From assembly GCA_017439405.1 (NCBI GenBank), contig JAFSJF010000036.1:1-52966 (forward strand): DNA of 52,966 nucleotides, read 5' to 3'. This document shows positions 27,960 to 41,200 of the stretch, piece after piece. Each line of letters opens with the position of its first letter. The first letter of the stretch is position 1. A program made the position numbers and the translations under genes. The notes beneath the pieces were generated by a model. It did no database searches. It worked only from the letters and a program-made list of their open reading frames with translations, and was not told the DNA's origin. This DNA is from Bacteroidales bacterium (GTDB lineage Bacteria > Bacteroidota > Bacteroidia > Bacteroidales > F082).

Positions 27960-29075
27960 ATGAAACTGTTGATGATCGTTAACGAGGACCGTTTCTTCCT
28001 CTCGCACCGAAAGGAAGTGGCACTGGCCGCGCAAAAGGCAGGCTGGGCAGTCACTGTTGTCTGCAAGGACACGGGGCAACGCCGGGATGTGGAGGCCTTG
28101 GGGCTGGAAATGCTGGAGTTGCCGGTGAACCCAACGGGCATGAACCCCATCCAGGAACTCAAGACTTGGCGCTTCCTTAATAGGCTATACAGAAAGAACC
28201 GCAATGCCGTGGTGCATCATGTGGGCCTGAAAGCCATCCTCTGGGGAGGACTTGCGGCAAAGACGGCCAAAGTCCGTGGCGTGGTGAACGCCGTCAGCGG
28301 CTTGGGCACCGTCTTTTCCGGCGAAAAGTTGGGCATCACGGCAAAGGGAATCTTGTCCGTCATGCGCTTCTCGAACAAGAGGGAGAGGGTGAAGGTGATC
28401 TTCCAAAACCAAGAGGACAAAAGCTTGTTTCTGCGTCATCGCGTCGTTGATGAAAGCCAGGTGGAGTTCATCAAGGGTTCGGGCGTTGACCTGAACGTTT
28501 TCAGATATGTGCCAGAGCCGGAAAGCGAGACGCTGAAAGTGGTGTTTTCGGCCAGGATGGTGAAGGAGAAGGGCGTCGTCGAGCTGATTGAGGCGGCCGG
28601 GCAACTGCGGCAAGCGTATGAAGGGAAAGTGGAGTTCTGGCTCTGCGGGCGTTTGGCCGTGAATGCCGACGCCCTATCAAAGGAGGAGCTTGAAGCCCGT
28701 TGCGACGGGAAATACATCAAGTGGCTGGATTTCCAGAAGGACATGAAGTCGGTCTTGGAGCAATGCCACATCATGGCCTTCCCAAGCTATTACCGCGAGG
28801 GCGTCCCCAAGTCGCTGATTGAGGCCTGTGCCGTGGGCCGACCCATCGTGACCACAGATTCGGTGGGCTGCAAGGACACAGTGGACGACGGCATCAACGG
28901 TTTCTTGGTCCCTGTCAGGGACAGCGAGGCCTTGGCCCAAAAACTGCGCATCCTGATAGAGGACAAGGGCTTGCGTGTCAGGATGGGCAAGGCATCGCGG
29001 GAGAAGGCCGAGCGGGAATTCTCCTTGGAGCGGGTGATAGAGAGACATCTGGATATTTACAATGAAATCAGCTGA
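27960..29075 (+). CDS. Glycosyltransferase family 4, bacillosaminyl-lipid glycosyltransferase-like
   Basis: I chose ATG 27960 (MKLLMIVNEDRFFLSHRKEVALAA); earlier in-frame codons are repeat DNA. The 371-residue GT4 protein has VVHHVGLKAILWGGLAAKTAKV, NAVSGLGTVFSGEK, FIKGSGVDLNVFRYVPEPE, VVFSARMVKEKGVVELIEAA, and FPSYYREGVPKSLIEACAVGRPIVTTDSVGCKDTVDDGINGFLV, the donor-binding E-x7-E block. The overall pattern resembles the enzymes that add GalNAc or a similar sugar to lipid-linked bacillosamine/QuiNAc-type sugars (PglA/WbjE-like). It would act right after the initiating transferase encoded next. Which sugar is used cannot be read from sequence. Confidence 0.87.
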   Translation: MKLLMIVNEDRFFLSHRKEVALAAQKAGWAVTVVCKDTGQRRDVEALGLEMLELPVNPTGMNPIQELKTWRFLNRLYRKNRNAVVHHVGLKAILWGGLAAKTAKVRGVVNAVSGLGTVFSGEKLGITAKGILSVMRFSNKRERVKVIFQNQEDKSLFLRHRVVDESQVEFIKGSGVDLNVFRYVPEPESETLKVVFSARMVKEKGVVELIEAAGQLRQAYEGKVEFWLCGRLAVNADALSKEELEARCDGKYIKWLDFQKDMKSVLEQCHIMAFPSYYREGVPKSLIEACAVGRPIVTTDSVGCKDTVDDGINGFLVPVRDSEALAQKLRILIEDKGLRVRMGKASREKAEREFSLERVIERHLDIYNEIS

Positions 29076-29078
29076 GTC

Positions 29079-29205
29079 GATGAGCGAATTTAGTTTACAT
29101 ATTGGCGAAAGACGAAGGACGGGAGACGGAAGCCTCCCTGTCCCCAGTCCTAAGTCCCCAGCCCCGAAGTCAAAAGATTATGTAGTTTAATTCTGAACAG
29201 TTACT
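29079..29205. repeat. Boundary repeat, copy 2
   Basis: Left arm GATGAGCGAATTTAGTTTAC plus ATATT (29079-29103) and right arm ATGTAGTTTAATTCTGAACA plus GTTACT (29180-29205) match copy 1 at 24571-24696. The middle consists of AGACGAAGGACGGGAGACGG and CCCCAGTCCTAAGTCCCCAG-type simple repeats. The copies are spaced 4.5 kb apart and bracket four genes. Confidence 0.6.
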
Positions 29206-29210
29206 TAATT

Positions 29211-30422
29211 ATGAGCATGACACTGAAACTGATCATTATGTCGCTTCTGTCGTTGGTCACAGCAACAGTCGCTTTTCCTATCGTGCTGCGCTATGCACGA
29301 CGTCACAATATCGTGGATAACCCCGATGCCCGAAAGCTGCACCGGTCGCCAGTCCCCGTGATGGGCGGCGTGGCGGTCTATGCAGGCATTTTGGCGGGAT
29401 GCATCGCCATGTACTTCCTTGTTCCAAGGTCAAGCCTGAATTGGAGCGTCTTGGCCTTGACGTCCATGTTGCTATTAGGAGTGTGGGACGACATTAAGAA
29501 TCTGTCGGCGGTGCTGCGCTTCCTGATCCAGTTCGGCATCGTGGGAGCCTATATGTGGTTCACCGGGCACTATATTGGCAGCCTTTACGGGATTTTCGGC
29601 ATCCATGAGATCAGTCCTTGGATAGGCATCCCTCTTTCGTTGGTGGCGGGCGTGGGCACTATCAACGCCATCAACATGATTGACGGAGTTGACGGCTACT
29701 CTTCGGGATTCGGCATCGTGGCCTGTTCGGGCTTTGCGGTGGTTTTCATCACGGTAGGCCAGCAGGTATGGTCGAGCCTGGCCGTCATCACGGTATCGGC
29801 CCTGTTGCCTTTCTTCATGCACAACGTGTTCGGCAAAAAGACAAAGATGTTCATTGGCGACGGTGGCACGATGATGCTGGGGTTCATGATGGCCATATTC
29901 GAGCTGGGGGCCCTGTCGCCAAAAGTTGGTGTGTCGATGGAATCCCATGGTATCGGCGTGGCGGCTATGACTTTGGCGATACTCTGCATCCCTATCTTCG
30001 ACACGTTGCGTGTGATGGCCGCGCGGATGCTGAGGGGGCATTCTCCGTTCCGGCCTGACAAGTCGCATCTGCACCATTTGTTCATCGACATGGGTTTCTC
30101 ACATATCGGGACGGCCATCGCCATTCTCTTGATGAACCTGACTGTCATATTAGTATGGCTGTTGCTGTGGCTGTGTGGCGCCTCAATCAACACCCAGACC
30201 ATCGTAGTGATGATACTGGGCTTTGCGGTGACCTTCGGCTTCTATAAGTTGATGAGATGGCAGCAGCACCATGGACCGGTGGGTGACGATGGCACGCCGC
30301 AAGGCACGCCATTGTGGCATGCCTTCTGCCGCTTCGGAAAATGGAGTCAATTTGAGAAGGGGAAGCTATGGCAAACGCTACAAAGACTCGTGGATGACAA
30401 CTGGATGGTGAAAAAGGGGTGA
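29211..30422 (+). CDS. Undecaprenyl-phosphate sugar-1-phosphate transferase (MraY/WecA-like)
   Basis: A 403-residue protein with about 10 membrane helices. It has the hallmarks of the family: DNPDARKLHRSPVPVMGGVAVY near residue 37, the LGVWDDIKNLSA acidic pair, NAINMIDGVDGYSSG (the catalytic DGxDG), FIGDGGTMMLGF, and the substrate-loop HLHHLFIDMGFSH with adjacent histidines. It joins a sugar phosphate from the UDP-sugar to undecaprenyl phosphate, starting the repeat unit. As last gene of the locus it supplies the initiating step; no WbaP-type transferase is present. The C-terminal extension after residue ~340 is hydrophilic and its role is unknown. Confidence 0.88.
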   Translation: MSMTLKLIIMSLLSLVTATVAFPIVLRYARRHNIVDNPDARKLHRSPVPVMGGVAVYAGILAGCIAMYFLVPRSSLNWSVLALTSMLLLGVWDDIKNLSAVLRFLIQFGIVGAYMWFTGHYIGSLYGIFGIHEISPWIGIPLSLVAGVGTINAINMIDGVDGYSSGFGIVACSGFAVVFITVGQQVWSSLAVITVSALLPFFMHNVFGKKTKMFIGDGGTMMLGFMMAIFELGALSPKVGVSMESHGIGVAAMTLAILCIPIFDTLRVMAARMLRGHSPFRPDKSHLHHLFIDMGFSHIGTAIAILLMNLTVILVWLLLWLCGASINTQTIVVMILGFAVTFGFYKLMRWQQHHGPVGDDGTPQGTPLWHAFCRFGKWSQFEKGKLWQTLQRLVDDNWMVKKG

Positions 30423-30447
30423 GATGTCGCTGAATGCGCTTCCATTC

Positions 30448-30600
30448 CATCGGAAAACGCAGTTTTTAGGAACTGAATTTTATCGTAAAACGCAGGTTTT
30501 TGGGGTTTGATTTTATAGGAAAACGCAGTTTTTAGAGGGTGTTTTTTATAGGAAAATGCAGTTTTTGTTTTGTAATTCGGTGAAAATGTGTAATTTTGTG
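30448..30600. repeat. Tandem repeat array (~33-bp period) upstream of the DUF4143 ATPase gene
   Basis: Four units at 30448, 30481, 30515 and 30548 carry ATCGGAAAACGCAGTTTTTA or close variants (GTAAAACGCAGG, GGAAAATGCAG). A fifth degenerate unit, GAAAATGTGTAATTTTG, begins at about 30582 and overlaps the -7 element. The spacing is 33-34 bp for the first four and about 30 for the last. Each unit is weakly self-complementary (AAAAC-GCA-GTTTTT). I see no equivalent array directly downstream of the gene. Confidence 0.8.
30569..30598 (+). promoter_or_regulatory. Promoter of the DUF4143 ATPase gene, embedded in the repeat array
   Basis: TTTG at 30569-30572, spacer 18, and TAATTTTG at 30591-30598. 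The last repeat unit covers the -7 element, an arrangement expected of an operator. Confidence 0.65.
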
Positions 30601-30620
30601 GCGAATTAAAAAACAACGCC

Positions 30621-31949
30621 ATGTTGAAGCGAAAAATCGAAACTTATATTGAGGATTTCTTGGCTCCACGACCGCAGAAAATCCTGATTTTGGACGGTGC
30701 CAGACAGACGGGAAAGACTTTCATCATCCGTCAAGTCGGGCAACGGATGTTCAAGAACTATGTGGAAATCAACTTGTTGGACGACAGCCTGAATGAAAGG
30801 AATTTTGCCGAGGCAATGTCAGTTTCCGGTTTTTATCTGCAATTGAGCGCTTTGGCCGGGGAAAAGTTGGGCAGCAAGGAGGATACTTTGGTCTTCCTCG
30901 ATGAGATTCAAGCCTATCCGCACCTTTTGACCTTGCTCAAGTTCCTCAATCAAGACAATCGCTTCACTTACATTGCCAGTGGCTCCGAGTTGGGCATCAC
31001 CTTGTTCAAGACGCTTTCCATTCCGATGGGCAGCATCGAGATAAGACATCTTTATCCACTTGATTTCGAGGAGTTTTTATGGGCGAATGGCGTTGGCGAG
31101 GAGTTTGTCAGCCATTGCCGAGAGATGTTTTTGGCCAAAAAAAGCCTGCAAGAAAGTTTCCATCGGCGGATGATGGACTTGTTTCGCAAGTACCTGTTGG
31201 TTGGCGGCTTGCCCGAAGCGGTGCAGTCGTTTGTGAACGACACCAACATTGCCACCGTGCGCCAAATCCAAAGCCAAATCCATGAATATTATGGCATTGA
31301 CGCTTCTCGTTACGACCAAGAGAACCGTCTGAAAATCAGGCGTATCTATGACATGATTCCTTCGGTATTGGAAAACAGGAAGAAGCGCATCGTTGCCCGC
31401 GACATTGAGGGCAAGGACAGCAAGCGATTCAAGGACTATCAGGACGAGTTCGATTATCTGATTGCTTCGGGCATCGCCCTTGACGTAAAGGCCATTTCGA
31501 CGCCTGCTTTCCCGCTTGTCGAGTCGATGAGCAAGAACCTTTTGAAGTTGTATCTCAATGATGTAGGAATGTTGACGGGCATTTTGTACCGAAACAACAT
31601 CAATCCGATTTTGAACGACGAGTGCAGCGTAAATTTGGGGACGGTTTATGAGTCGGCGGTGGCACAGGAACTGAAGGCGCACGGTTTCAAGTTGTTCTAT
31701 TACGACAACAAGAAAAAGGGCGAGGCCGATTTCCTCATCGACGACTACGAACAACTTGCGGTTTTGCCGTTGGAAGTCAAGTCGGGGAAGGATTATTATG
31801 TGCATAGTGCCTTGGACCATTTCATTGAAAATGAGGATTATTCCGTAAAGAATGCCATCGTTTTCTGCAACGAAGGCACCGTTGAGGACAAAGATGGCGT
31901 GACTTACATGCCGGTTTATAATGTGATGTTTTTAGGGGTTACATTCTGA
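30621..31949 (+). CDS. AAA ATPase with C-terminal DUF4143 (PD-(D/E)XK-like) domain
   Basis: A 442-residue protein. The N-terminal AAA_14-type ATPase has Walker A LDGARQTGKTF near residue 27 and Walker B TLVFLDEIQAYPHL near 93, then the sensor-like YIASGSELG. The middle part (RKYLLVGGLPEAVQSFV) leads into a DUF4143-type domain with GTVYESAVAQEL, GEADFLIDD and LPLEVKSGKDY, the D...ExK arrangement of PD-(D/E)XK nuclease-like folds. This family is very common and often multi-copy in Bacteroidales, and its job is unknown. It has its own promoter and a 33-bp repeat array. Standing between the polysaccharide locus and another ATPase with a different array, it looks like an independent unit. Confidence 0.85.
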   Translation: MLKRKIETYIEDFLAPRPQKILILDGARQTGKTFIIRQVGQRMFKNYVEINLLDDSLNERNFAEAMSVSGFYLQLSALAGEKLGSKEDTLVFLDEIQAYPHLLTLLKFLNQDNRFTYIASGSELGITLFKTLSIPMGSIEIRHLYPLDFEEFLWANGVGEEFVSHCREMFLAKKSLQESFHRRMMDLFRKYLLVGGLPEAVQSFVNDTNIATVRQIQSQIHEYYGIDASRYDQENRLKIRRIYDMIPSVLENRKKRIVARDIEGKDSKRFKDYQDEFDYLIASGIALDVKAISTPAFPLVESMSKNLLKLYLNDVGMLTGILYRNNINPILNDECSVNLGTVYESAVAQELKAHGFKLFYYDNKKKGEADFLIDDYEQLAVLPLEVKSGKDYYVHSALDHFIENEDYSVKNAIVFCNEGTVEDKDGVTYMPVYNVMFLGVTF

Positions 31950-32034
31950 AGATCTTTACCAAATCTCTTTCGTGTTTTTTGAGGAAAAAGCATTTATTTC
32001 CATTCTTATTTGATTTGTAATTCGTTGAAAAACA

Positions 32035-32202
32035 TGTCCACGAAACCCTCAAAACACCATTCGTGGACAAAAATTCATTCAAAAAGTGTCCACGAAAGCC
32101 CTAAAAATGCTTTTCGTGGACAATAATTCATTCAAAAGGTGTCCACGAAATACTATTTCTATGATTTCGTGGACACTTTTTAATCAAAAATATGTCCACG
32201 AA
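32035..32202. repeat. Alternating inverted-repeat array upstream of the DUF234-type ATPase (7 half-sites)
   Basis: TGTCCACGAA occurs at 32035, 32087, 32140 and 32193. Its complement TTCGTGGACA occurs at 32060, 32113 and 32166. Successive sites are 25, 27, 26, 27, 26 and 27 bp apart and alternate in orientation, so same-strand copies repeat every 52-53 bp, about five helical turns. The spacers are AT-rich and not conserved inside the palindromes; those between palindromes share ATTCATTCAAAA. The last half-site overlaps the promoter. Confidence 0.92.
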
Positions 32203-32223
32203 ACAAAAAATCCTGTATCTTTG
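32193..32223 (+). promoter_or_regulatory. Promoter of the DUF234-type ATPase, with a repeat half-site at the -33 position
   Basis: TATCTTTG at 32216-32223 is an exact -7 element 20 bp before the ATG. The position where TTG would be expected (about 32193) is occupied by TGTCCACGAA. Repeat binding would therefore compete with or replace -33 contacts. Confidence 0.55.
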
Positions 32224-32243
32224 CGGCATAAAAACAACATGTT

Positions 32244-33686
32244 ATGCAAGACATCATCGGCAGAAAAACGGAAAGAAAGGAACTTGAAAGCCTTTACGAA
32301 TCGAGAAGGCCGGAGTTTGTGGCAGTCTATGGACGCAGGCGGGTAGGGAAAACTTTTCTTGTCCGCGAACATTTCTCGGGCCGTTTTGCATTCTATCATA
32401 CGGCCATTTCGCCCGCCGACTATCAAGGCAGGAAAAAGGATTTGAAAAACGAGCAACTGCGGGCCTTTTGTTCAAGCATTCAGCAATTTGGCGGCGATTG
32501 GGACACGATGCCTACTGATTGGTTTGAGGCTTTTGCTTGTCTTCGCTCGTTGTTAGAACATCGGGGTGATTCGGGGCGCAAGGTGGTTTTCATCGATGAG
32601 TTACCTTGGATGGATTCGGGTCGGTCGGGGTTTGTGTCGGCACTCGAGCATTTCTGGAACGGCTGGGGCGCAGGCCGCACCGACTTGATGCTCATCGTTT
32701 GCGGCTCGGCGGCCTCATGGATGAACGACAAAATCATCAACAACACGGGGGGGCTTTATGGACGCCTCACTTACGAAATGCACCTCTCGCCATTCAGTCT
32801 GGCGGAATGCGAGCAGTTTTACGAGTCGCGGGGCATCAGCATGGACCGTTACGACCAAGTGCAAAGCTACATGGTTTTTGGCGGAATCCCTTATTATCTC
32901 AACTACCTCAAACCAGAATATAGTCTTGCAGAAAACATTGACAATCTGTTTTTTGCAAAAAACGGCCGCTTGCAAAAAGAGTTTGACCGTCTATATGATT
33001 CCTTGTATTCCAATTCGGAAAAATACGTTGAGATTGTGCGTTTATTAGCCACCAAGCGAGACGGATTCACGCGAAAGGAAATCGCTGAAAAGACTTCGAT
33101 TGCCTACAACGGACGGCTTTCCAAGATGCTGCAATCGTTGGAAAAGAGCGATTTTGTGGTCAGTTACACCTATTTTGGCGGTAGTCTGCGAAATGTCTAT
33201 TACAAGTTGGTGGACAGGCTTTCGCTGTTCCATTTGGCCTTCATGGACGGGAAGAAACCCATCCGCCAAGGCTTTTGGACGAAAAACATCCGCACGCCCG
33301 AGTTGAACACATGGCGCGGCTTGGCTTTCGAGGAAGTGTGTTTGCAGCATGAGGCACAAATCAAGAAGGCGTTGGGCTTTGGCGCGGTTGATGCGGTGGC
33401 TGCACCGTGGCGCAGCAAGGAAGGCACTTCGCAGGTGGACTTGCTTTTTGACCGCAGCGACCGCGTGGTTAACCTTTGCGAAATGAAGTTCGTCGCCGAC
33501 GAGTTTTCCATCGACAAGGATTATGATGCCGAGCTTCGCCGCAAAGTGGAACGTTTCGTTGAGGATACTTCCTGTAAGAAATCTGTCCATTTGTCATTGG
33601 TGACCACATACGGCCTGAATAAGAGCAAGTATTCTAGTCGTTTTCAGTCAGTTATTACCTTAAGCGACTTGTTTTCCCAAGAATAA
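32244..33686 (+). CDS. AAA ATPase with C-terminal DUF234 (PD-(D/E)XK-like) domain
   Basis: A 480-residue protein starting MQDIIGRKTERKELESLYES. Walker A is VYGRRRVGKTFLV (near residue 30), Walker B KVVFIDELPWMDS (near 115), sensor region LMLIVCGSAASWM. A winged-helix-like segment follows (FTRKEIAEKTSIAYNGRLSKMLQSLEKSDFV), then the DUF234-type end with NTWRGLAFEEVC, SQVDLLFDRSDRVVNLCEMKF, again a D...ExK arrangement. This resembles archaeal/bacterial ATPases of the PF01637+PF03008 type, whose function is unknown. Uniquely in this window the gene is bracketed by matching inverted-repeat arrays, 7 half-sites before and 5 after; the first downstream half-site starts 3 bp after the stop codon. Confidence 0.88.
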   Translation: MQDIIGRKTERKELESLYESRRPEFVAVYGRRRVGKTFLVREHFSGRFAFYHTAISPADYQGRKKDLKNEQLRAFCSSIQQFGGDWDTMPTDWFEAFACLRSLLEHRGDSGRKVVFIDELPWMDSGRSGFVSALEHFWNGWGAGRTDLMLIVCGSAASWMNDKIINNTGGLYGRLTYEMHLSPFSLAECEQFYESRGISMDRYDQVQSYMVFGGIPYYLNYLKPEYSLAENIDNLFFAKNGRLQKEFDRLYDSLYSNSEKYVEIVRLLATKRDGFTRKEIAEKTSIAYNGRLSKMLQSLEKSDFVVSYTYFGGSLRNVYYKLVDRLSLFHLAFMDGKKPIRQGFWTKNIRTPELNTWRGLAFEEVCLQHEAQIKKALGFGAVDAVAAPWRSKEGTSQVDLLFDRSDRVVNLCEMKFVADEFSIDKDYDAELRRKVERFVEDTSCKKSVHLSLVTTYGLNKSKYSSRFQSVITLSDLFSQE

Positions 33687-33688
33687 AG

Positions 33689-33804
33689 TGTCCACAAAAG
33701 GCAAAAAAATCATTTTCGTGGACACTTTTTTATTCAAATTATGTCCATGAAATCATAGAAATAATATTTCGTGGACACTTTTTTGCTTGTTTTATGTCTA
33801 CGAA
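33689..33804. repeat. Alternating inverted-repeat array downstream of the DUF234-type ATPase (5 half-sites)
   Basis: Sites: TGTCCACAAA 33689, TTCGTGGACA 33715, TGTCCATGAA 33742, TTCGTGGACA 33768, TGTCTACGAA 33795. The spacing is 26, 27, 26 and 27 bp, the same register as the upstream array. The plus-strand half-sites each have one mismatch while the minus-strand ones are perfect. The first palindrome could also act as a terminator (it is followed by a TTTTTT run). Confidence 0.9.
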
Positions 33805-33891
33805 AAACAAGAAAAGAATAGAATTAGGTTCAGGTTTGTGCAATTATTGGGAATTGTTGCAACAAAACATACACTTTTTTCTTCAAATGGC

Positions 33892-33920
33892 TTGCAAATG
33901 ATTCTTTTTTCCTATTTTTG
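33892..33920 (+). promoter_or_regulatory. Promoter of the 6S-like RNA
   Basis: TTG at 33892-33894, spacer 18, TATTTTTG at 33913-33920. Transcription should begin near 33926, just before the 5' hairpin. Confidence 0.7.
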
Positions 33921-33921
33921 C

Positions 33922-34136
33922 CATCGGATTGGTTTCGGCCAGTCCGTAATTTATTGTTAGAAGCGTTATGCTTGTCTTGTAAGTCGAGAACCTGAGAAAT
34001 TCAATGACTTTATTTATCACAAGGAGCATAGTGGCTATCACCTTTGCGTGGGCTGCTATCTCATATTTGCGATAAATAGGTAATTCTCAGGACCTTCGAC
34101 TTAGGAATGTGGCATACAGTTCCACGCTTCTTTTTG
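33922..34136 (+). ncRNA. ssrS: Structured RNA of about 210 nt, probably 6S-like
   Basis: No ORF fills this stretch, but it has its own promoter and a long rod-like fold. A 5' hairpin is formed by CGGATTGG/CCAGTCCG (about 33923-33945). The main rod has GAAGCG(T) and TATGC (33962-33972) pairing with GCATA and (A)CGCTTC (34112-34131). Further in, TAAGTCGA pairs with TCGACTTA, then CCTGAGAA with TTCTCAGG. An unpaired central region follows (CAATGACTT against AGG), then TATTTATC pairs with GATAAATA, closing a ~50-nt apical part. The end is followed by CTTTTTG. A long hairpin with an open centre flanked by stable arms is the 6S RNA plan, which mimics an open promoter and binds RNA polymerase. The 6S name is inference from shape and size; Bacteroidales 6S-type RNAs are known. 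The fold itself is directly visible. Confidence 0.65.
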
Positions 34137-34207
34137 TGTCATCAAATTAGGGGAATAAAGGATTCTCCTGTGTTTTTGGAACTGGAAGGCGTATAGAAAG
34201 AAAAGCC

Positions 34208-34633
34208 ATGAAATACATTATTTGTGATTTTGCCAGAAGCAATTGGGGCAAAACAAAAACACTTCTAGAGGTAATTGAACAATTGAAGACAAAAGCCTAT
34301 CTGATTGATGAAATACCAATAGCCCCAGATGATAAATTCGCTGTTTTCGAGATGAACGGGGAAAAAATCGTTGTCAACACCCAAGGCGACCCCAATTCTT
34401 ATCAAGAAGAAGGTCTGAAAAGAGCCGTTAATGAAAATGCCGACATTATTGTTTGCGCGTCAAGAATAAAAGGTACAACCGAGAAATGCATCTACACAAT
34501 TGCTGAAAATGGCTATGAAATCATTTGGTTCAGCAATTTCTTTGCTGACAACGACAGCCTACCCTGTGTGGGTATTTTTCCCGAAATTACTGCCGAAGCA
34601 ATTGTCAAACTTATACAAAAACTAATACAATGA
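34208..34633 (+). CDS. Small P-loop-like protein, unknown function
   Basis: A 141-residue cytoplasmic protein. The start MKYIICDFARSNWGKTKTLLEVI contains ARSNWGKT, which fits the Walker A pattern [AG]xxxxGK[ST], directly after a hydrophobic strand. Later strands VVNTQGDP (Walker B-like, ending in D) and IIVCASR, then EIIWFSNFF, suggest a compact alpha/beta P-loop NTPase such as a small kinase-like or MobB-like fold. No specific family was recognised. The stop overlaps the next gene by 4 bp (ATGA), so the two are translationally coupled even though the partner is secreted. It lies 72 bp after the 6S-like RNA and between two TGTCCACGAA arrays. Confidence 0.7.
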   Translation: MKYIICDFARSNWGKTKTLLEVIEQLKTKAYLIDEIPIAPDDKFAVFEMNGEKIVVNTQGDPNSYQEEGLKRAVNENADIIVCASRIKGTTEKCIYTIAENGYEIIWFSNFFADNDSLPCVGIFPEITAEAIVKLIQKLIQ

Positions 34634-36009
34634 AGACCAACAAAAGCCTTTTGCCTTTGCTTCTTTTTGTAGCAACATTCCCATTGAACGGATTAGGGCA
34701 AATTAAAATCGACAATGGCTCGTACACCCCTAAAGTAAACGACCTGAAGGAAGTCCAAATCACGCCTAACATCCCAGCGTACAGCGAGTTGTTCGCGGAA
34801 AGCATGGAAGAGACCCAAGGTACAGAGAAACCTGCGTATCTAAACTTAAAGCGGAATGATTGGGGTGCTAGCATGAAAGAATGTGTGAACCCTGTTGGAG
34901 AATCCGTGTTCATTTATTCAGACAATTATCCTAAAAGGTTGTTTTTGAACACAAAGGACAAGACTGCTATAGTAACAAGCATCCCACAAGGATATTACAC
35001 CATAGTCGGCTGGTTTGGTAGGTTTGATGGAAATGAGGATTTGCGAGCAGAAGCAATTAAGGCTCATCAGGAAATGATAGAACAATACACTTTTAAAACG
35101 GAATACGATAGTATTTGGGCAATTTGTATGCTGATTGATGGTTGGAAAGGTACAGATGTTGATACTTGGGTGGATGATTATAAGGCGAGAATGAGAAGAT
35201 TGGGAGATAGAATAACAAATGCCAAAAACACAGGCGGCTATCCAGAACCTGAATATGGCCATTATAACGGGAAATACAGCATATATGTACTTGAAGACCA
35301 AGATGGAAATCTTTATTATGATTTTCATGACGAATGTGGTTATCGCTTTGGAAGTGATGATAGTCATAAAGATAAGTATGTATCTGTTACATGCTATAAT
35401 AAGATTACGGAATTACTATTGAACAAGGAAGTGTATGTTCCCATGCCATCTCATGACTTTATAACTGGAGAAAAACTAAATGATGAGGATGGTATGGCTG
35501 CGGACTATTTCTCGTGTAAGGATTTTTTTCTACGTGATGGAAACTTGATTGGCGTGTTTGAAAATGAACAAGGTGAAATAACCATTAAACTTGATATGTA
35601 TATATGCCATTGGTTTGACCGAATTGGATATAAAGGTGAAGTTAATGGAATATATCCAAAGAATTACGAAACGTTGAGAGAAAATGAAATCAAATTGGAA
35701 CAAGCACAAAAAGAAACACTTGTCCAAAAGCAAAAGCGCGAGAAGGAACTGGCAAAAGAGAAACGTCGTAAGGAATTGGTAGCGAAATATGGCGACAATT
35801 TTGGAAATCTTATTTCCAATGGCAAAGTGGCTATCGGAATGACGAAAGAAATGTGTCGTGAGGCAGTGGGGTATTATCCAACAAGTCAATACAAAGCCAC
35901 AACCGCAAGAGGAGAAAGCGAAATTTGGGTGTACCATGTTACAAATACCAAGATGACATTGTATTTTGATGATGGTATTTTGTATTTGATAGAGAACAAG
36001 CGGTATTAA
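34630..36009 (+). CDS. Exported protein with coiled coil and BamE/SmpA-like C-terminal motif, unknown function
   Basis: A 459-residue protein with a signal peptide (MKTNKSLLPLLLFVATFPLNGLGQ). Residues ~25-340 have no motif that I recognise. A highly charged coiled coil follows (EIKLEQAQKETLVQKQKREKELAKEKRRKE, ~350-385). The end, GKVAIGMTKEMCREAVG then SEIWVY and MTLYFDDGILYLIE, matches the 'GMT.E.V...G.P......' pattern of the SmpA/OmlA (BamE-like) fold. It is AT-rich compared with the polysaccharide genes. It is translationally coupled to the small P-loop protein upstream. A 3-site TGTCCACGAA array starts 14 bp after its stop. Periplasmic or surface role likely; function unknown. Confidence 0.72.
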   Translation: MKTNKSLLPLLLFVATFPLNGLGQIKIDNGSYTPKVNDLKEVQITPNIPAYSELFAESMEETQGTEKPAYLNLKRNDWGASMKECVNPVGESVFIYSDNYPKRLFLNTKDKTAIVTSIPQGYYTIVGWFGRFDGNEDLRAEAIKAHQEMIEQYTFKTEYDSIWAICMLIDGWKGTDVDTWVDDYKARMRRLGDRITNAKNTGGYPEPEYGHYNGKYSIYVLEDQDGNLYYDFHDECGYRFGSDDSHKDKYVSVTCYNKITELLLNKEVYVPMPSHDFITGEKLNDEDGMAADYFSCKDFFLRDGNLIGVFENEQGEITIKLDMYICHWFDRIGYKGEVNGIYPKNYETLRENEIKLEQAQKETLVQKQKREKELAKEKRRKELVAKYGDNFGNLISNGKVAIGMTKEMCREAVGYYPTSQYKATTARGESEIWVYHVTNTKMTLYFDDGILYLIENKRY

Positions 36010-36022
36010 GAATCTATTAATG

Positions 36023-36085
36023 TGTCCACGAAACAATAAAAATCATCTTTCGTGGACACTTTTTTGTTTACTTTGTGTCCACGGA
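36023..36085. repeat. Third TGTCCACGAA alternating array (3 half-sites)
   Basis: TGTCCACGAA 36023, TTCGTGGACA 36049, TGTCCACGGA 36076, spaced 26 and 27 bp, exactly as at the two arrays flanking the DUF234-type ATPase. The first palindrome followed by TTTTTTG may terminate the upstream gene. Confidence 0.88.
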
Positions 36086-36118
36086 ACAAAAATTTGATAG
36101 GAATCTCCTCAAATTTCT

Positions 36119-36164
36119 CCGAAAATGTGATTTTTTGGCTGTTTTTATAGCCGAAAATGTGATT
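36119..36164. repeat. Two-unit direct repeat related to the 33-bp array
   Basis: CCGAAAATGTGATT at 36119 and 36151, 32 bp apart. The first continues TTTTGG, giving GAAAATGTGATTTTTTGG, close to the GGAAAATGCAGTTTTTG unit of the array at 30448-30600. It looks like a short relative of that array. Confidence 0.55.
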
Positions 36165-36218
36165 GAGAACGATGAAACCATTTGAAAGAGAAGTGATTAA
36201 GTTTTTCTTTTGCAGAAT

Positions 36219-36285
36219 CAAAAAACCGAGCGGAACCCAACCAGATTCCGCTCGGTTTTCATTAGGTTGAATGTCGCGCTTATTC
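36219..36285. repeat. Direct repeat A: copy of the secA 3' region, with intrinsic terminator
   Basis: 67 bp matching 38144-38207 (repeat B, the true secA 3' end) over nearly the whole length; TTCCGCTCGGTTTTCATTAG and GTTGAATGTCG are identical, with indels of 1 and 2 bp. It contains a perfect 14-bp stem AAAACCGAGCGGAA (36222-36235) / TTCCGCTCGGTTTT (36246-36259) that can terminate in either direction. Confidence 0.8.
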
Positions 36286-36333
36286 AACTCTTTCCAAGTG
36301 TCTGTGGCAGTTCTTGAAACTATCGAAAACTTT
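36280..36333 (-). pseudogene. Possible remnant of a second secA-like C-terminus
   Basis: Read on the minus strand, the stop at 36280-36282 is preceded by KNCHRHLERVE, which lines up with the SecA end [12 protein letters not shown] at the same distance from the duplicated terminator. Only about 17 codons can be aligned before similarity is lost. It supports the view that repeat A is a decayed duplicate of the secA 3' end rather than just a shared terminator. Confidence 0.5.
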
Positions 36334-36343
36334 CTTATCTTTG
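36314..36343 (+). promoter_or_regulatory. Promoter of the AlbA_2 ATPase gene
   Basis: TTG at 36314-36316, spacer 19, TATCTTTG at 36336-36343, 25 bp before the ATG at 36369. The promoter overlaps the secA-like remnant on the other strand. Confidence 0.7.
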
Positions 36344-36368
36344 CGCCCTGAAAATCAACCATAACAGT

Positions 36369-38114
36369 ATGGCTCTCTTTACTGACATCAACGATTTGCT
36401 GAACAAGCGCAAGGTGGAAGACAACCGTATCGAGTTCAAACGCGGCTGGAATCCAGAGAACATCTACCATAGCATTTGTGCTTTCGCCAATGATATTGAC
36501 AACCTTGGCGGCGGCTACATTCTTGTGGGTGTGGAAGAAGAAAACGGTGTGGCCAAACGTCCCGTTCTCGGTCTGCCTGAGTCTCAAATTGATGCCATAC
36601 AAAAGGCCATGCACGGTTTCAACCAGAAAATCAACCCTTATTACTTGCCAAGGACTTCTGTCGAAAACGTCGACGGCAAGTATGTCTTGGTCATTTGGGT
36701 GCCAACAGGTGTCAACCGTCCTTATTCTGTCCCCGTAAACATCAACACAAAAGGATTCAGCAAGGAGGAGTTTTATATTCGCAGTGGCTCTACAAGCATT
36801 CCTGCGCGAGGCGAGGTGCTCGATGAACTTCGCGACATGGCCTCCCGACTTTCTTTCGATGAGCGTCCCAATCCCGACATCAAACCTTCCGATATCTCCA
36901 TTACCCTGTTGAGCGACTATCTGGATCATGTGCATAGCAGCATCCCCGCAGAAGAAATCTCATCTGCCAATAAGATGAACCTGCTCGACCAGATGGAACT
37001 GCTTTATGGCCCTTCCGAAAATCGGATGATTCGCAATGTGGCAGCCATGATGTTCTCCGAAAACCCGCAACAGTTCTTCCCATATAGCCAAGTGGAGGTG
37101 GTCATCTTTCCCGAAGGACGCATCCAAAACCCTGACAGTATGATAGAAGTTCCTCCGTTCATTGGTCCCATCACCAAAGTGATTTCCGACACGCTTTCCT
37201 ATTTGCGAACCAATGTCATCAAGGAACGCATCGTGAAGCCCGCTAATGACGAACATTCCATCCGTTATTTCAACTATCCATACCAAGCCTTGGAAGAAGC
37301 CGTTGTCAATGCCATGTACCACCGTGACTACCAAGTGTACGAACCCGTTGAAATCACCATCGAGCCTGACATGATTACCATTTTGAGTTTTTCAGGCCCC
37401 GACCGTTCCATCCCAATGGATGCTATACGCCAAGCCGATTCCTTGAAGTCGCGCCGCTACCGCAACCGACACTTGGGTGAGTTCTTCAAAGAGTTGGAAC
37501 TGACCGAAGGTCGTGCCACTGGCATTCCAACCATCCAACGGCAATTGAAAAATAACGGCTCTCCTCGTGCTTCCATTGAAACAGACGAGAACCGTACCTA
37601 TTTTATGATTGAGATTCCTTGCCATAAGGATTTTGTCGGCAAAGTCATCCTTGCCAACGAAAACCAACCTGCCAAGCCTTCTGCCTTGCATCGTTTTTTG
37701 GCTTCTTTGTCAGAAGTGTTGTCCCAAGATGTGTCCCAAGATACCGATTTGGATTTCAGTAGATTACAAATTTTGTCCCAAGATGTGTCCCAAGATGTGT
37801 CCCAAGATGTGTCCCAAGATGTGTCCCAAGATGTGTCTCAAGATGACGAAAAGATTTTGGCGGATTGGCTCAACACAAATTCCACGAAGCAAGTATGGTC
37901 GATTCTCAAACTTGCAGCCGAACCATCCGAAATGCGACAGCTGCAAGAAACAGTGGGAGAAACCAACAAGCGCCGTTTTGCCTTGAAATACATCAAACCC
38001 CTTATCTCCATAGGTTGGCTCGAAATGACCATTCCTGACAAGCCTACGAGCAAACTTCAGAGATATCGTCTAACCACCCAAGGGAAACACATTCTTTCCA
38101 TAATAGGGAAATAG
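36369..38114 (+). CDS. AlbA_2 domain / RecG-like ATP-binding protein with winged-helix end
   Basis: A 581-residue protein. The N-terminal AlbA_2 (Schlafen-type) domain is marked by EDNRIEFKRGW and ICAFANDIDNLGGGYILVGVEEENG. A HATPase-like middle follows (YPYQALEEAVVNAMYHRDYQVYEPVEITI near residue 310, then FSGPDRSIP and NRHLGEFFKELELTEGRATGIP). The end (DEKILADWLNT... to LQRYRLTTQGKHILSIIG) is a winged-helix-like segment. Proteins of this plan are common in Bacteroidota and are thought to act in transcription control or nucleic-acid processing; the function is unproven. A repetitive SQDV linker (residues ~450-493) joins the last two domains; relatives often have VTPQ-type repeats there. The gene is bracketed by copies of the secA 3' end. 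Confidence 0.85.
   Translation: MALFTDINDLLNKRKVEDNRIEFKRGWNPENIYHSICAFANDIDNLGGGYILVGVEEENGVAKRPVLGLPESQIDAIQKAMHGFNQKINPYYLPRTSVENVDGKYVLVIWVPTGVNRPYSVPVNINTKGFSKEEFYIRSGSTSIPARGEVLDELRDMASRLSFDERPNPDIKPSDISITLLSDYLDHVHSSIPAEEISSANKMNLLDQMELLYGPSENRMIRNVAAMMFSENPQQFFPYSQVEVVIFPEGRIQNPDSMIEVPPFIGPITKVISDTLSYLRTNVIKERIVKPANDEHSIRYFNYPYQALEEAVVNAMYHRDYQVYEPVEITIEPDMITILSFSGPDRSIPMDAIRQADSLKSRRYRNRHLGEFFKELELTEGRATGIPTIQRQLKNNGSPRASIETDENRTYFMIEIPCHKDFVGKVILANENQPAKPSALHRFLASLSEVLSQDVSQDTDLDFSRLQILSQDVSQDVSQDVSQDVSQDVSQDDEKILADWLNTNSTKQVWSILKLAAEPSEMRQLQETVGETNKRRFALKYIKPLISIGWLEMTIPDKPTSKLQRYRLTTQGKHILSIIGK
37775..37846. repeat. 12-bp coding tandem repeat (GTCCCAAGATGT x 6)
   Basis: Six units start at 37775, 37787, 37799, 37811, 37823 and 37835 (the last is GTCTCAAGATGA); two more copies lie at 37721 and 37733. 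They encode SQDV repeats. The 12-bp unit keeps the frame, so unit number can change without breaking the protein. Confidence 0.92.
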
Positions 38115-38143
38115 CCAACAGTTGCCAATTTGGATGACAAAAA

Positions 38144-38207
38144 CAAAAAACCGTGCGAAACCCACCTGATTCCGCTCGGTTTTCATTAGGTTGAATGTCG
38201 CTTATTC
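38144..38207. repeat. Direct repeat B: secA 3' end and terminator
   Basis: Contains the secA stop codon (minus strand, 38202-38204) and an imperfect terminator stem, TTCCGCTCGGTTTT (38170-38183) against AAAACCGTGCGAAA (38147-38160), followed on the minus strand by a T-rich run. It matches repeat A at 36219-36285. Confidence 0.8.
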
Positions 38208-41200
38208 CATAGCGTTTTCAAACCTTCCGTGGCATTGCTTGTACTTCTTGCCGCTACCGCAGGGGCAGGGGTCGTTGCGGCCCACTTTCTTCTCCACGCG
38301 GATGGGCTGGGTAACTTGCTTCTGCTGCGTGTCGCTATGCGACTGTGCCAGCAGGTCTTGGCGCTGCTCGCGGATCTTCGACTTGTCGATGCCTTGGGCG
38401 CGGTGCTCGCGCACGGTGTTCGGGTCTTGCGTCGGGATGTCGGCACGCATCAGGAACGAGATGACGTCTTCGTTGATTTTCTCCAACATGGCCTTGAACA
38501 GGTTGAATGACTCCAACTTGTAGATAACCAGCGGGTCTTTCTGCTCGTAGGTGGCGTTTTGCACCGATTCCTTCAGGTCGTCGAGTTCACGGAGGTGTTC
38601 CTTCCAGGCGTTGTCGATGAGGCCGAGGGTGATGCTCTTCTCGATGCAGAGGTTCACCTCGCGGGCACCGTTCTCCACCGCTTTCTTCAGGTTGACGATG
38701 ACGTTCATGCCGCGTTTGCCGTCGGTAATCGGGATGGCGATGTTCTCGAAGTGGCTCTGGTTCTCATACACGTTCTTGATGACGGGCAGGGTCTTTTCGC
38801 CGATGATGCGGGCCTTTTCCTTGTAATGCTCCGAGGCGGCGTTGAAGAGTTTTTCGGCCAATTCCTTGGTCTTCAGGCGGTCGAATTCCTCCTCGCTGAA
38901 GGGCGCATCAATGCCCATGCTCGAAAGCAGTTCCATCTTGAAGCCCTCGTAATCCTTGGCGTCCTGATATTCCTCGATGAGTTTCTCGCCGAAGTCCATC
39001 ATCATATTGTTGATGTCGATGGAAAGACGCTCTCCAAACAGGGCGTGACGGCGTTTCTTGTAGATGACCTCACGCTGCGAGTTCATCACGTCGTCGTATT
39101 CGAGCAAGTGCTTACGCACGCCGAAATGGTTCTCTTCCACCTTCTTCTGCGCCTTCTCGATTTGCTTGGTGATCATCGGGTGTTGGATGACTTCGCCTTC
39201 CTGCAAGCCCATGCGGTCCATGATGCCCGCGATGCGCTCAGAGCCGAACATACGCATAAGGTTGTCTTCGAGCGAGACGTAGAACTGCGAGCTACCCGGG
39301 TCGCCTTGACGGCCTGAACGACCGCGCAACTGACGGTCGACACGGCGCGACTCGTGGCGTTCGGTACCGATGATGGCCAAACCGCCGGCTTCCTTCACGC
39401 CGGGGCCGAGTTTGATGTCGGTACCACGGCCAGCCATGTTGGTGGCGATGGTCACGGTGCCCGCCTGACCGGCTTCCTTGACGATTTGGGCCTCCTTGAA
39501 GTGCAACTTGGCGTTCAACACATTGTGCGGGATGCCCTTGCGGGTCAGCATACGACTGAGCAACTCGGAGATTTCCACCGAAGTGGTACCCACCAACACG
39601 GGACGACCCGCATTTACAAGGCTTTGAATCTCGTCGATGACGGCATTGTATTTCTCGCGCTTGGTCTTGTAGATCATGTCCTCTTGGTCGATACGGGCAA
39701 TCGGGCGGTTGGTCGGGATGACGACCACATCGAGTTTGTAGATGTCCCAGAACTCGCCTGCCTCGGTCTCAGCGGTACCGGTCATACCAGCCAGCTTGTG
39801 GTACATGCGGAAGTAGTTCTGCAAGGTGATGGTGGCGTAGGTCTGCGTAGCGGCTTCCACCTTCACGTTTTCCTTGGCCTCCACGGCCTGGTGCAGTCCG
39901 TCGCTCCAGCGGCGGCCTTCCATGATACGGCCCGTCTGCTCGTCAACGATCTTGACCTTGTTGTCGATGATGACGTAGTCGACGTCTTTTTCAAACAAGG
40001 TGTAAGCTTTCAGCAGCTGCTGCACGGTGTGCAGACGCTCCGACTTCTCGGCGAAGTTACGCATCAGTTCGGCCTTGCGCAGCACTTTTTCGTCGTTGGT
40101 CAAATTGGAATGTTCCAAGTCGGCAATCTCGGCACCCACATCGGGGATGATGAAGAAGGCAGGGTCGTTGTAGGCCTGTGCCAATTGCTCGCTGCCTTTG
40201 TCGGTAAGGGTGACGGTATTCAGTTTCTCATCGATGACAAAATACAACTCGTCGTCGATGATGTGCATGTTTTCGTTGCGGTTCTGCATGTAGAAGCCCT
40301 CGGTCTTCTGCATCAGGCTCTTCATGCCTTCCTCGCTGAGGAATTTGATGAGGGCGTTGTTCTTCGGCAGGCCACGGTAGGCGCGGAAGAGTTGGTCGGC
40401 ACCGTGTTTCTTCTCGTCCTCGGTGGCATTGTGGTCGGTGAGGATGCGTTTGGCCTCGGCCAAAATGCCTGTCACATAACGCTTTTGGGCTTCGTAGAGT
40501 TTCACAACGTCGGGCTTCAGCTCGTCAAACTCCTGCTGGTCGCCACGCGGAGTGGGGCCGCTGATGATCAGAGGCGTACGGGCATCGTCAATCAACACGG
40601 AGTCCACCTCGTCGACGATGGCGTAGTGATGTTTGCGTTGCACCAGTTCTTCGGGGTTGCCTGTCATGTTGTCACGCAGGTAGTCGAAGCCGAACTCGTT
40701 GTTGGTACCGTATGTGATGTCGCAGTTGTAGGCGCGGCGACGTGCAGCGGAGTTAGGCTCGTGCTTGTCGATGCAGTCGACGGTGAGGCCGAGGAACTCG
40801 TACATCGCACCCATCCATTCGGAGTCACGTTTGGCTAAGTAGTCGTTCACGGTGACCACATGCACACCCTTGCCTGCCAAGGCATTGAGGTAGACCGGCA
40901 ACGTAGCCACGAGGGTCTTACCTTCACCCGTGGCCATCTCAGCGATCTTGCCTTGATGCAATACGATACCGCCGATGATTTGGCAGTCGTAGTGTACCAT
41001 GTCCCAAGTCACCATGTTGCCGCCCGCCATCCAGCTGTTCTTGAAGTAGGCCTTGTCGCCTTCGATGGTGACGTGGTCGTATTTTGCGGCCAGCTCGCGG
41101 TCGAGGTCGGTGGCGGTCACTTCCACCACTTCGTGCTCGCAGAAGTATTTGGCGGCGGCCTTCACCACCGAGAACGCCTCGGGAAGGATTTCGTTCAGTG

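Follow-up and report, generated by a model that had tools for sequence, protein, structure and literature searches.

The accessible passages of PMC12988326 rank PDC-S01 fourth in frequency among the defences of prokaryotes and count PDC-S27, whose ATPase is joined to a PD-(D/E)XK-superfamily domain, over 8000 times; according to passages of PMC13356809, both are abundant in rumen genomes. Those passages of PMC12988326 contain neither 'operator' nor 'autoregul', and none of the ones that mention a 'repeat' deals with these genes. In the open PubMed Central (PMC) literature, which omits preprints and most subscription papers, we recognised no paper on repeats around genes of this kind and found no account of the control of PDC-S01 or PDC-S27 genes. 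Here we describe a PDC-S27 gene on a 52,966-nucleotide contig of a Bacteroidales bacterium (JAFSJF010000036.1; the whole stretch is referred to below as the window) that is flanked on both sides by arrays of short half-sites alternating in orientation. (As in PMC12988326, PDC-S27 is a candidate phage defence here by listing.) From a comparison of this gene with its relatives, we think it likely that genes of the family repress themselves from private operator arrays and are carried in exchangeable array-gene(-array) cassettes. In REP/RAYT systems, a protein gene is flanked by its own palindromic repeats, and the window gene is likewise flanked by palindromic repeats of its own.

An earlier, sequence-only reading of the window had reported seven half-sites upstream and five downstream of the gene, alternating in steps of 25-27 bp with same-strand copies 52-53 bp apart, and all twelve are present where it placed them. 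It missed a degenerate eighth half-site, a third array, and the 33-bp direct repeats of a neighbouring gene (see below). The features of the locus are as follows.

32244 to 33686, plus strand: gene for a STAND-type AAA+ ATPase, winged-helix and PD-(D/E)XK-like protein, PADLOC PDC-S27 (approximate residues: AAA+ ATPase 1-245; winged helix 258-325; PD-(D/E)XK-like domain 352-480)
32035 to 32202: upstream array, half-sites at 32035 (+), 32060 (-), 32087 (+), 32113 (-), 32140 (+), 32166 (-) and 32193 (+)
32216 to 32223, plus strand: -7 promoter box TATCTTTG, read from the sequence and overlapped by the eighth half-site
32220 to 32229, plus strand: degenerate eighth half-site TTTGCGGCAT, 5 of 10 letters kept, 27 bp past the seventh and continuing the upstream series
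33689 to 33804: downstream array, half-sites at 33689 (+), 33715 (-), 33742 (+), 33768 (-) and 33795 (+)
36023 to 36085: third array of the same half-site type, half-sites at 36023, 36049 and 36076 (the last with one mismatch), no ATPase gene directly adjoining

The seven upstream half-sites are exact copies of TGTCCACGAA in alternating orientation, separated by steps of 25, 27, 26, 27, 26 and 27 bp, with same-strand copies every 52-53 bp. The downstream array, with steps of 26, 27, 26 and 27 bp and one mismatch in three of its five half-sites, is a direct repeat of the upstream array in identical phase, and starts at the third base past the TAA stop codon (33684-33686). Matches to TGTCCACGAA with at most two mismatches number 76 in the window, compared to a mean of 54.3 in 100 shuffles (standard deviation 6.1, maximum 70). 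Convergent exact pairs of the window type are confined, within the organism's own genome (3.53 Mb, 159 contigs), to the window's contig, at most 2.5 kb from the gene, and a reversed-pattern control gave zero such pairs in that genome. Lone exact 10-mers occur eight times in the other contigs and look like chance matches because the control pattern is equally frequent genome-wide (eight). The gene-less third array is probably a remnant.

The window protein matches the PADLOC PDC-S27 profile PDLC04984 over its whole length (residues 1-477, E value 4.5e-189) and is thus a member of a candidate defence family that has already been catalogued. The claim that this was an undescribed system therefore stands for the arrays, as far as the open literature reaches, and not for the protein. 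Pfam shows ATPase families only, among them ATPase_2 (E value 3.7e-14); this profile match, Walker A and Walker B motifs and the fold place the protein among the STAND-type AAA+ ATPases. The label 'DUF234-type' given in the sequence-only reading was weakly right, in that 11 of the 36 members of our alignment A2 match DUF234 (PF03008) weakly (best E value 4.1e-5), whereas the window protein itself has no DUF234 match at an E value of 0.01. No match was found in PHROGs, nor in NCBIfam for the window protein.

PD-(D/E)XK nucleases carry the motif E...D...ExK on a helix and strands. Across the 36 sequences, E363, E413 and K415 are invariant and D399 is conserved in at least 90%, and in the structure model these residues are predicted to lie on a helix (352-368) and two strands (397-404 and 408-415). 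The conserved residues and the model together argue that the C-terminal domain is probably a PD-(D/E)XK nuclease, in agreement with the ATPase-nuclease architecture proposed earlier. (The model used was built from an alignment of 18 sequences and is good; a nine-sequence model with a predicted local distance difference test score, pLDDT, of 50 was set aside.) The winged helix is present in the model and in its alignment to 2fna. The 50 matches listed for each search of the Protein Data Bank (PDB) are AAA+/STAND proteins, and no nuclease match for the C-terminal domain is among them, the lists being filled by the AAA+ part; a viral-fold search gave just generic ATPase-type matches among the 50 listed. 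Note that matches to the archaeal AAA+ ATPases SSO1545 (2fna) and PAB2304 (2qen) stop near model residue 335 and leave the C-terminal nuclease-like domain uncovered.

The arrays accompany the gene in its close relatives. A scan of genome contigs returned 11 loci, nine of them at 79-97% identity; TGTCCACGAA-type arrays lie upstream in all nine (degenerate in L028) and downstream in eight (none in L031). The remaining two, L033 and L034 (50% identity), have by eye a single CCACGA-N18-TCGTGG inverted repeat just 5' of the start codon, with an inner spacing equal to that of the window pairs. (The sister genomes compared are drafts, and array detection was automatic and thresholded.)

Within the organism's own genome there are 20 further family genes at 42-53% identity. 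The search gave 24 matches, of which L085-L087 (24-26% identity) were excluded as other families, and L083, whose locus is cut at a contig end, stands outside every count, leaving the window gene and 19 others for analysis; L083 is an open gene preceded by an alternating TTGGCGCAATCT / AGATTGCGCC array. An upstream repeat signal is present in 20 of the 20 genes: 18 have an inverted repeat scoring above 40 shuffles, and L079 and L081 have instead a significant 52-bp lag. Moreover, in 13 of the 20 the same private repeat stands before the gene and behind its stop codon, with cognate scores of 22-95, whereas the 380 non-cognate comparisons score at most 19. Outside those 13, L082 (27) and L066 (18) score via flank repeats rather than arrays, and no downstream match above background was found for L065, L067, L068, L070 or L081. 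By eye, half-sites vary among the paralogues, with a core shared by some (L069 and L073; L077 and L078). Two consecutive steps sum to approximately 52-54 bp in most paralogues with at least three sites, to 61-63 bp in L069 and L075, and to a mixture of 53 and 85 bp in L067. Note that L063, L178 and L179 are approximately half identical to the window protein and yet have half-sites close to those of the window, which indicates that similar half-sites are not confined to orthologues.

To the genus set, 119 loci contributed 118 genes with a start (L144 being without one), 115 of them long enough and 87 left after removal of near-duplicates; the window gene (L035) is outside the 87, and its type is represented by L024, L027, L028, L030 and L031. 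Upstream of these 87 genes, an inverted repeat scores above all 30 dinucleotide shuffles in 75, a significant same-strand lag is found in 51, and one or the other in 82. The corresponding counts among the controls, a small set of 48 unrelated genes (159 open reading frames reduced to 77 and then to 48), are nine, ten and 17, and at least two of the control lag matches are neighbours of an array, namely the PDC-S01 gene at 30621 of the window and an open reading frame that shares the array of L081. Class members outside the family show the signal in 25 of 29 cases, and homologues on viral contigs in eight of 11 (significant lags 56, 83, 56, 15 and 15 bp). The association of array and gene is thus real and general across the family, and the proposal that protein and repeats form one unit is supported in the organism's own genome, the genus and the class.

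The same-strand copies recur mostly at 52-54 bp, and in some clades at 61-63, 74-76 or 85 bp, near whole helical turns. Grouped into 23 clusters at 60% identity, the genus members have lags of 14, 33, 33, 52-54 (14 clusters), 56, 62, 63, 63, 74 and 85 bp. For the 20 clusters with lags above 40 bp (those of 14, 33 and 33 bp were left out), the phase concentration at 10.5 bp is 0.84, a value not reached in 100,000 draws of uniform lags, against which the clusters, being still mutually related, were compared. Because the 52-54 bp lags dominate, any period tried between 10 and 11 bp scores nearly as high. The five clusters outside 48-57 bp, taken through the phase test alone, were equalled in 415 of 100,000 uniform draws. 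Of 14 significant lags in the class, nine are at 51-55 bp and the others are 20, 98, 98, 98 and 102 bp. Helical phasing, which the sequence-only reading had suggested, thus describes most of the spacing and does not extend to lags of 98 and 102 bp.

The check named in the sequence-only reading, whether the repeat co-varies with protein clade, bears it out. The test took in 96 sequences whose inverted repeat is significant, of which the genus supplied 75 and the class 21. In these, half-site similarity follows protein identity with a Mantel r of 0.438, the largest value in 300 permutations being 0.054. By single domain, the correlation is best for the winged helix (0.409), followed by the nuclease part (0.386) and the AAA part (0.380); in pairs below 60% identity the values are 0.143 for the winged helix, 0.120 for residues 201-258, 0.086 for the AAA part and 0.079 for the nuclease, with 0.121 overall. 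Once overall identity is corrected for, N289 and Y288 rank first and second among the columns; both sit where the predicted recognition helix (290-301) begins. The stretch 281-301 contains four of the ten highest-ranking columns (hypergeometric 4.8e-4; a post hoc enrichment, computed with the ranking known and over mutually dependent columns).

The half-sites also meet the promoter. We take TATCTTTG to be a Bacteroidetes-type -7 box, and a TAnnTTTG box lies upstream in 80 of the 87 genus members. Where both a box and a significant inverted repeat are present, a half-site (at most three mismatches in ten) lies over the promoter in 61 of 69 genes, compared to 20.6% for shuffled promoters. The family presents several marks of an autoregulated gene: a predicted DNA-binding domain in the product, a putative operator over its own promoter, and covariation between the two.

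Covariation at the recognition helix suggests sequence-specific binding, the spacing suggests that an oligomer binds, and the overlap of half-sites with the promoter suggests repression. We envisage a single-gene unit in which one protein would serve as ATPase switch, DNA-binding regulator and nuclease, each protein reading its private half-site through its own winged helix. Several copies would occupy the alternating half-sites, all on the same side of the helix, joined through the STAND/AAA+ module, and the bound oligomer would cover the promoter, such that the gene holds its own expression low; repression may be released on infection. As half-site and recognition helix change jointly, approximately 20 paralogues could coexist in a genome without repressing one another. 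Array and gene, often with a second array past the stop codon, form the piece that is found at different chromosomal places in different genomes, and recombination between two direct arrays could remove the gene and leave one array. The PADLOC listing, together with the location beside another candidate family, suggests that defence may be the purpose.

Several observations weigh against this account. One of the two tests is passed by 17 of the 48 controls, in at least two cases because an array lies alongside, and five of the 87 genus members and four of the 29 class members show no signal at our thresholds. The half-sites were picked automatically from the best-scoring inverted repeat, and this can be something other than the array (in L033 the search picks a repeat different from the one seen by eye). 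The class lags of 98, 98, 98, 102 and 20 bp are in poorer agreement with whole turns, or in none. The covariation reflects shared descent in part, given the small r in pairs below 60% identity; individual columns have weak effects (r at most 0.14), and the third and fourth columns, R249 and E225, lie outside the winged helix. The downstream array present in 13 of 20 paralogues is superfluous for simple autorepression; it may serve looping from one array to the other, or recombination between the two as direct repeats. Finally, binding, repression and nuclease activity are predicted by computation.

A second explanation, possible and in our view rather unlikely, is that the unit is a mobile element with the arrays as its ends, and that the nuclease binds and cuts them to move the cassette, autoregulation being secondary. 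In the nine genomes inspected (L124-L132), the site of L071 is empty and its half-sites are absent from the vicinity. Eight L071 relatives lie at other places; for six of them, the aligned block breaks off no more than 8 bp from the outer array arm on each side. (For L140 and L141 it stops short of those arms.) Junctions were inspected closely in six pairs. Upstream homology is lost at, or within approximately 30 bp of, the outermost half-site in L187/L194 (95% identity), L069/L188 (96%), L057/L171 (98%) and L215/L219 (88%), the downstream flank being in common in L069/L188 and L057/L171; downstream homology ends 1-11 bp past the stop codon in L187/L194, L199/L202 (95%), L160/L161 and L215/L219. 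Moreover, genome G050 has one array where L024 has array-gene-array, and this array has the sequence of a recombinant, its first part following the upstream array and its last half-site and flank the downstream array.

Against mobility driven by the arrays, no transposase was seen. Target duplications were noted at two sites (L082 stands between perfect 27-bp direct repeats, and approximately 50 bp are duplicated around an AAA_14 insert in L133) but follow no rule shared by the units, and we therefore claim no transposition mechanism. The L071 insert carries approximately 160 and 70 bp of extra DNA outside its arrays, seven of 20 paralogues are without a downstream array match, and in L052/L167 (96%) homology breaks off within the upstream array and, on the other side, 63 bp past the stop codon. 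Several other near-identical pairs share both flanks and hence occupy the same chromosomal place, and homologous exchange between strains could equally give the junctions. Furthermore, among 304 same-genome pairs (drawn from 114 genes in 43 genomes, with 190 of the pairs in the organism's own genome), identity stays below 70% throughout, unlike what an active transposon would give, and attains 60% in one, compared to 224 and 316 of 6137 pairs between genomes; when the labels are permuted, same-genome pairs at 60% average 15.1 and never fall below five. (In this comparison, near-identical copies could be hidden by assembly collapse, and the sampling was biased towards genes most similar to the window gene.)

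Some side observations concern these sites. By eye, a tenth genome, L133 (G108:C1), has an AAA_14/DUF4143-like gene at the site that is empty in the nine, the duplicated stretch being the end of a neighbouring gene, and in L135-L138 a stretch like the gene's own 3' end precedes the upstream array, as after tandem duplication. The L082 site, next to the 3' terminus of a conserved gene that by eye we presume to be anmK-like, is a hotspot of insertion (L149-L159); in other genomes it holds AAA-type genes with other direct repeats (L149, L154), an L154-like repeat array (L156) or an ORF6N-like gene (L157-L159).

An extension of the self-repression account, more speculative and to our minds doubtful, is that the cassettes form a modular immune repertoire of sensor ATPase, self-repressor and nuclease, in which the array would be both operator and att-like recombination site and cross-repression through a shared half-site would limit each genome to one cassette per type. 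If true, this would explain how 21 PDC-S27 genes, no two of the 20 compared being more than 60% identical, stand beside at least 11 PDC-S01 genes.

That the inverted repeats work at the RNA level, forming terminators or leader hairpins, rather than as protein sites on DNA, is very unlikely. Pairs such as AAAAGTGTCCACGAAA...TTTCGTGGACACTTTTTT look terminator-like by eye. Nevertheless, a terminator scan, which covers loops of 3-8 nucleotides (array loops are approximately 16), found nothing in the arrays, no Rfam family reached its gathering score in 29000-39000, most upstream half-sites precede the predicted promoter, and a role in RNA would leave the spacing and the covariation with the winged helix unexplained. 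Least probable of all, and strongly disfavoured, is the REP/RAYT-like spreading of repeats through the genome by the protein, put forward in the sequence-only reading, which would fit the gene's flanking palindromic repeats and the existence of a few gene-less arrays but is contradicted in the organism's own genome by the confinement of window-type pairs to the window's contig and of L069-type pairs to a single occurrence at their own gene, by the absence of a RAYT/Y1 domain from the Pfam scan, by the lack of any same-genome pair at 70% identity, and by the rarity of gene-less window-type arrays among 99 genus genomes. (Exact window-type pairs occur in 17 of these, nine with a close ATPase; of the other eight, in G101 a frameshifted copy runs into the end of its contig, G045 and G085 stop at contig edges, G050, G103 and G108 have a window-type array without the ATPase, and G061 and G063 have a single pair only.)

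Private arrays also accompany the sister family, whose features in the window are given here.

30621 to 31949, plus strand: AAA_14 and DUF4143 gene, PADLOC PDC-S01, the upstream neighbour of the PDC-S27 gene
30450 to 30569, plus strand: direct repeats of the PDC-S01 neighbour, starts 30450, 30483, 30516 and 30549, period 33
36120 to 36164, plus strand: two direct repeats of the L256-type PDC-S01 array (score 26; at most 11 against the other ten arrays), probably a remnant of a PDC-S01 array

For 11 PDC-S01 genes of the organism's own genome (E value 1e-40; L250-L260), the top upstream direct-repeat lag is 32 or 33 bp in all, and is above 100 shuffles in ten, the exception being L254 (13.0 versus 14.0); by eye, the repeat units differ between genes. 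With alternating arrays in PDC-S27 and direct arrays in PDC-S01, two candidate defence families have private arrays. The lone PDC-S27 and PDC-S01 arrays adjoin (36023-36164), between a gene of unknown function and an SLFN_AlbA_2 gene (36369-38114) whose protein has in-frame SQDV repeats. Past the downstream flank of the window gene, a conserved stretch (GAAGCGTTATGCTTGTCTTGTAAG...) at 33925-34190 is found also at L024, L025 and L089; the Rfam scan gave nothing at gathering score there either.

If each gene of the family does have a readable private site, most members would come with a predicted site and a matched negative control; a specificity code would be readable from sequence, a large candidate family would be open to binding and reporter assays, and it would be seen how one genome keeps approximately 20 related nucleases apart. 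The regulation that we favour has counterparts among described systems. In the cases of BrxR (PMC9122601), AbiEi (PMC7319586) and restriction-modification controllers (PMC5282649), a defence locus is reported to be regulated through inverted repeats, as we predict here. In those systems, as we understand them, the regulator gene is separate from the effector, whereas in the window system the predicted regulator is the ATPase-nuclease itself, its putative sites form phased arrays, and each paralogue appears to have a site of its own.
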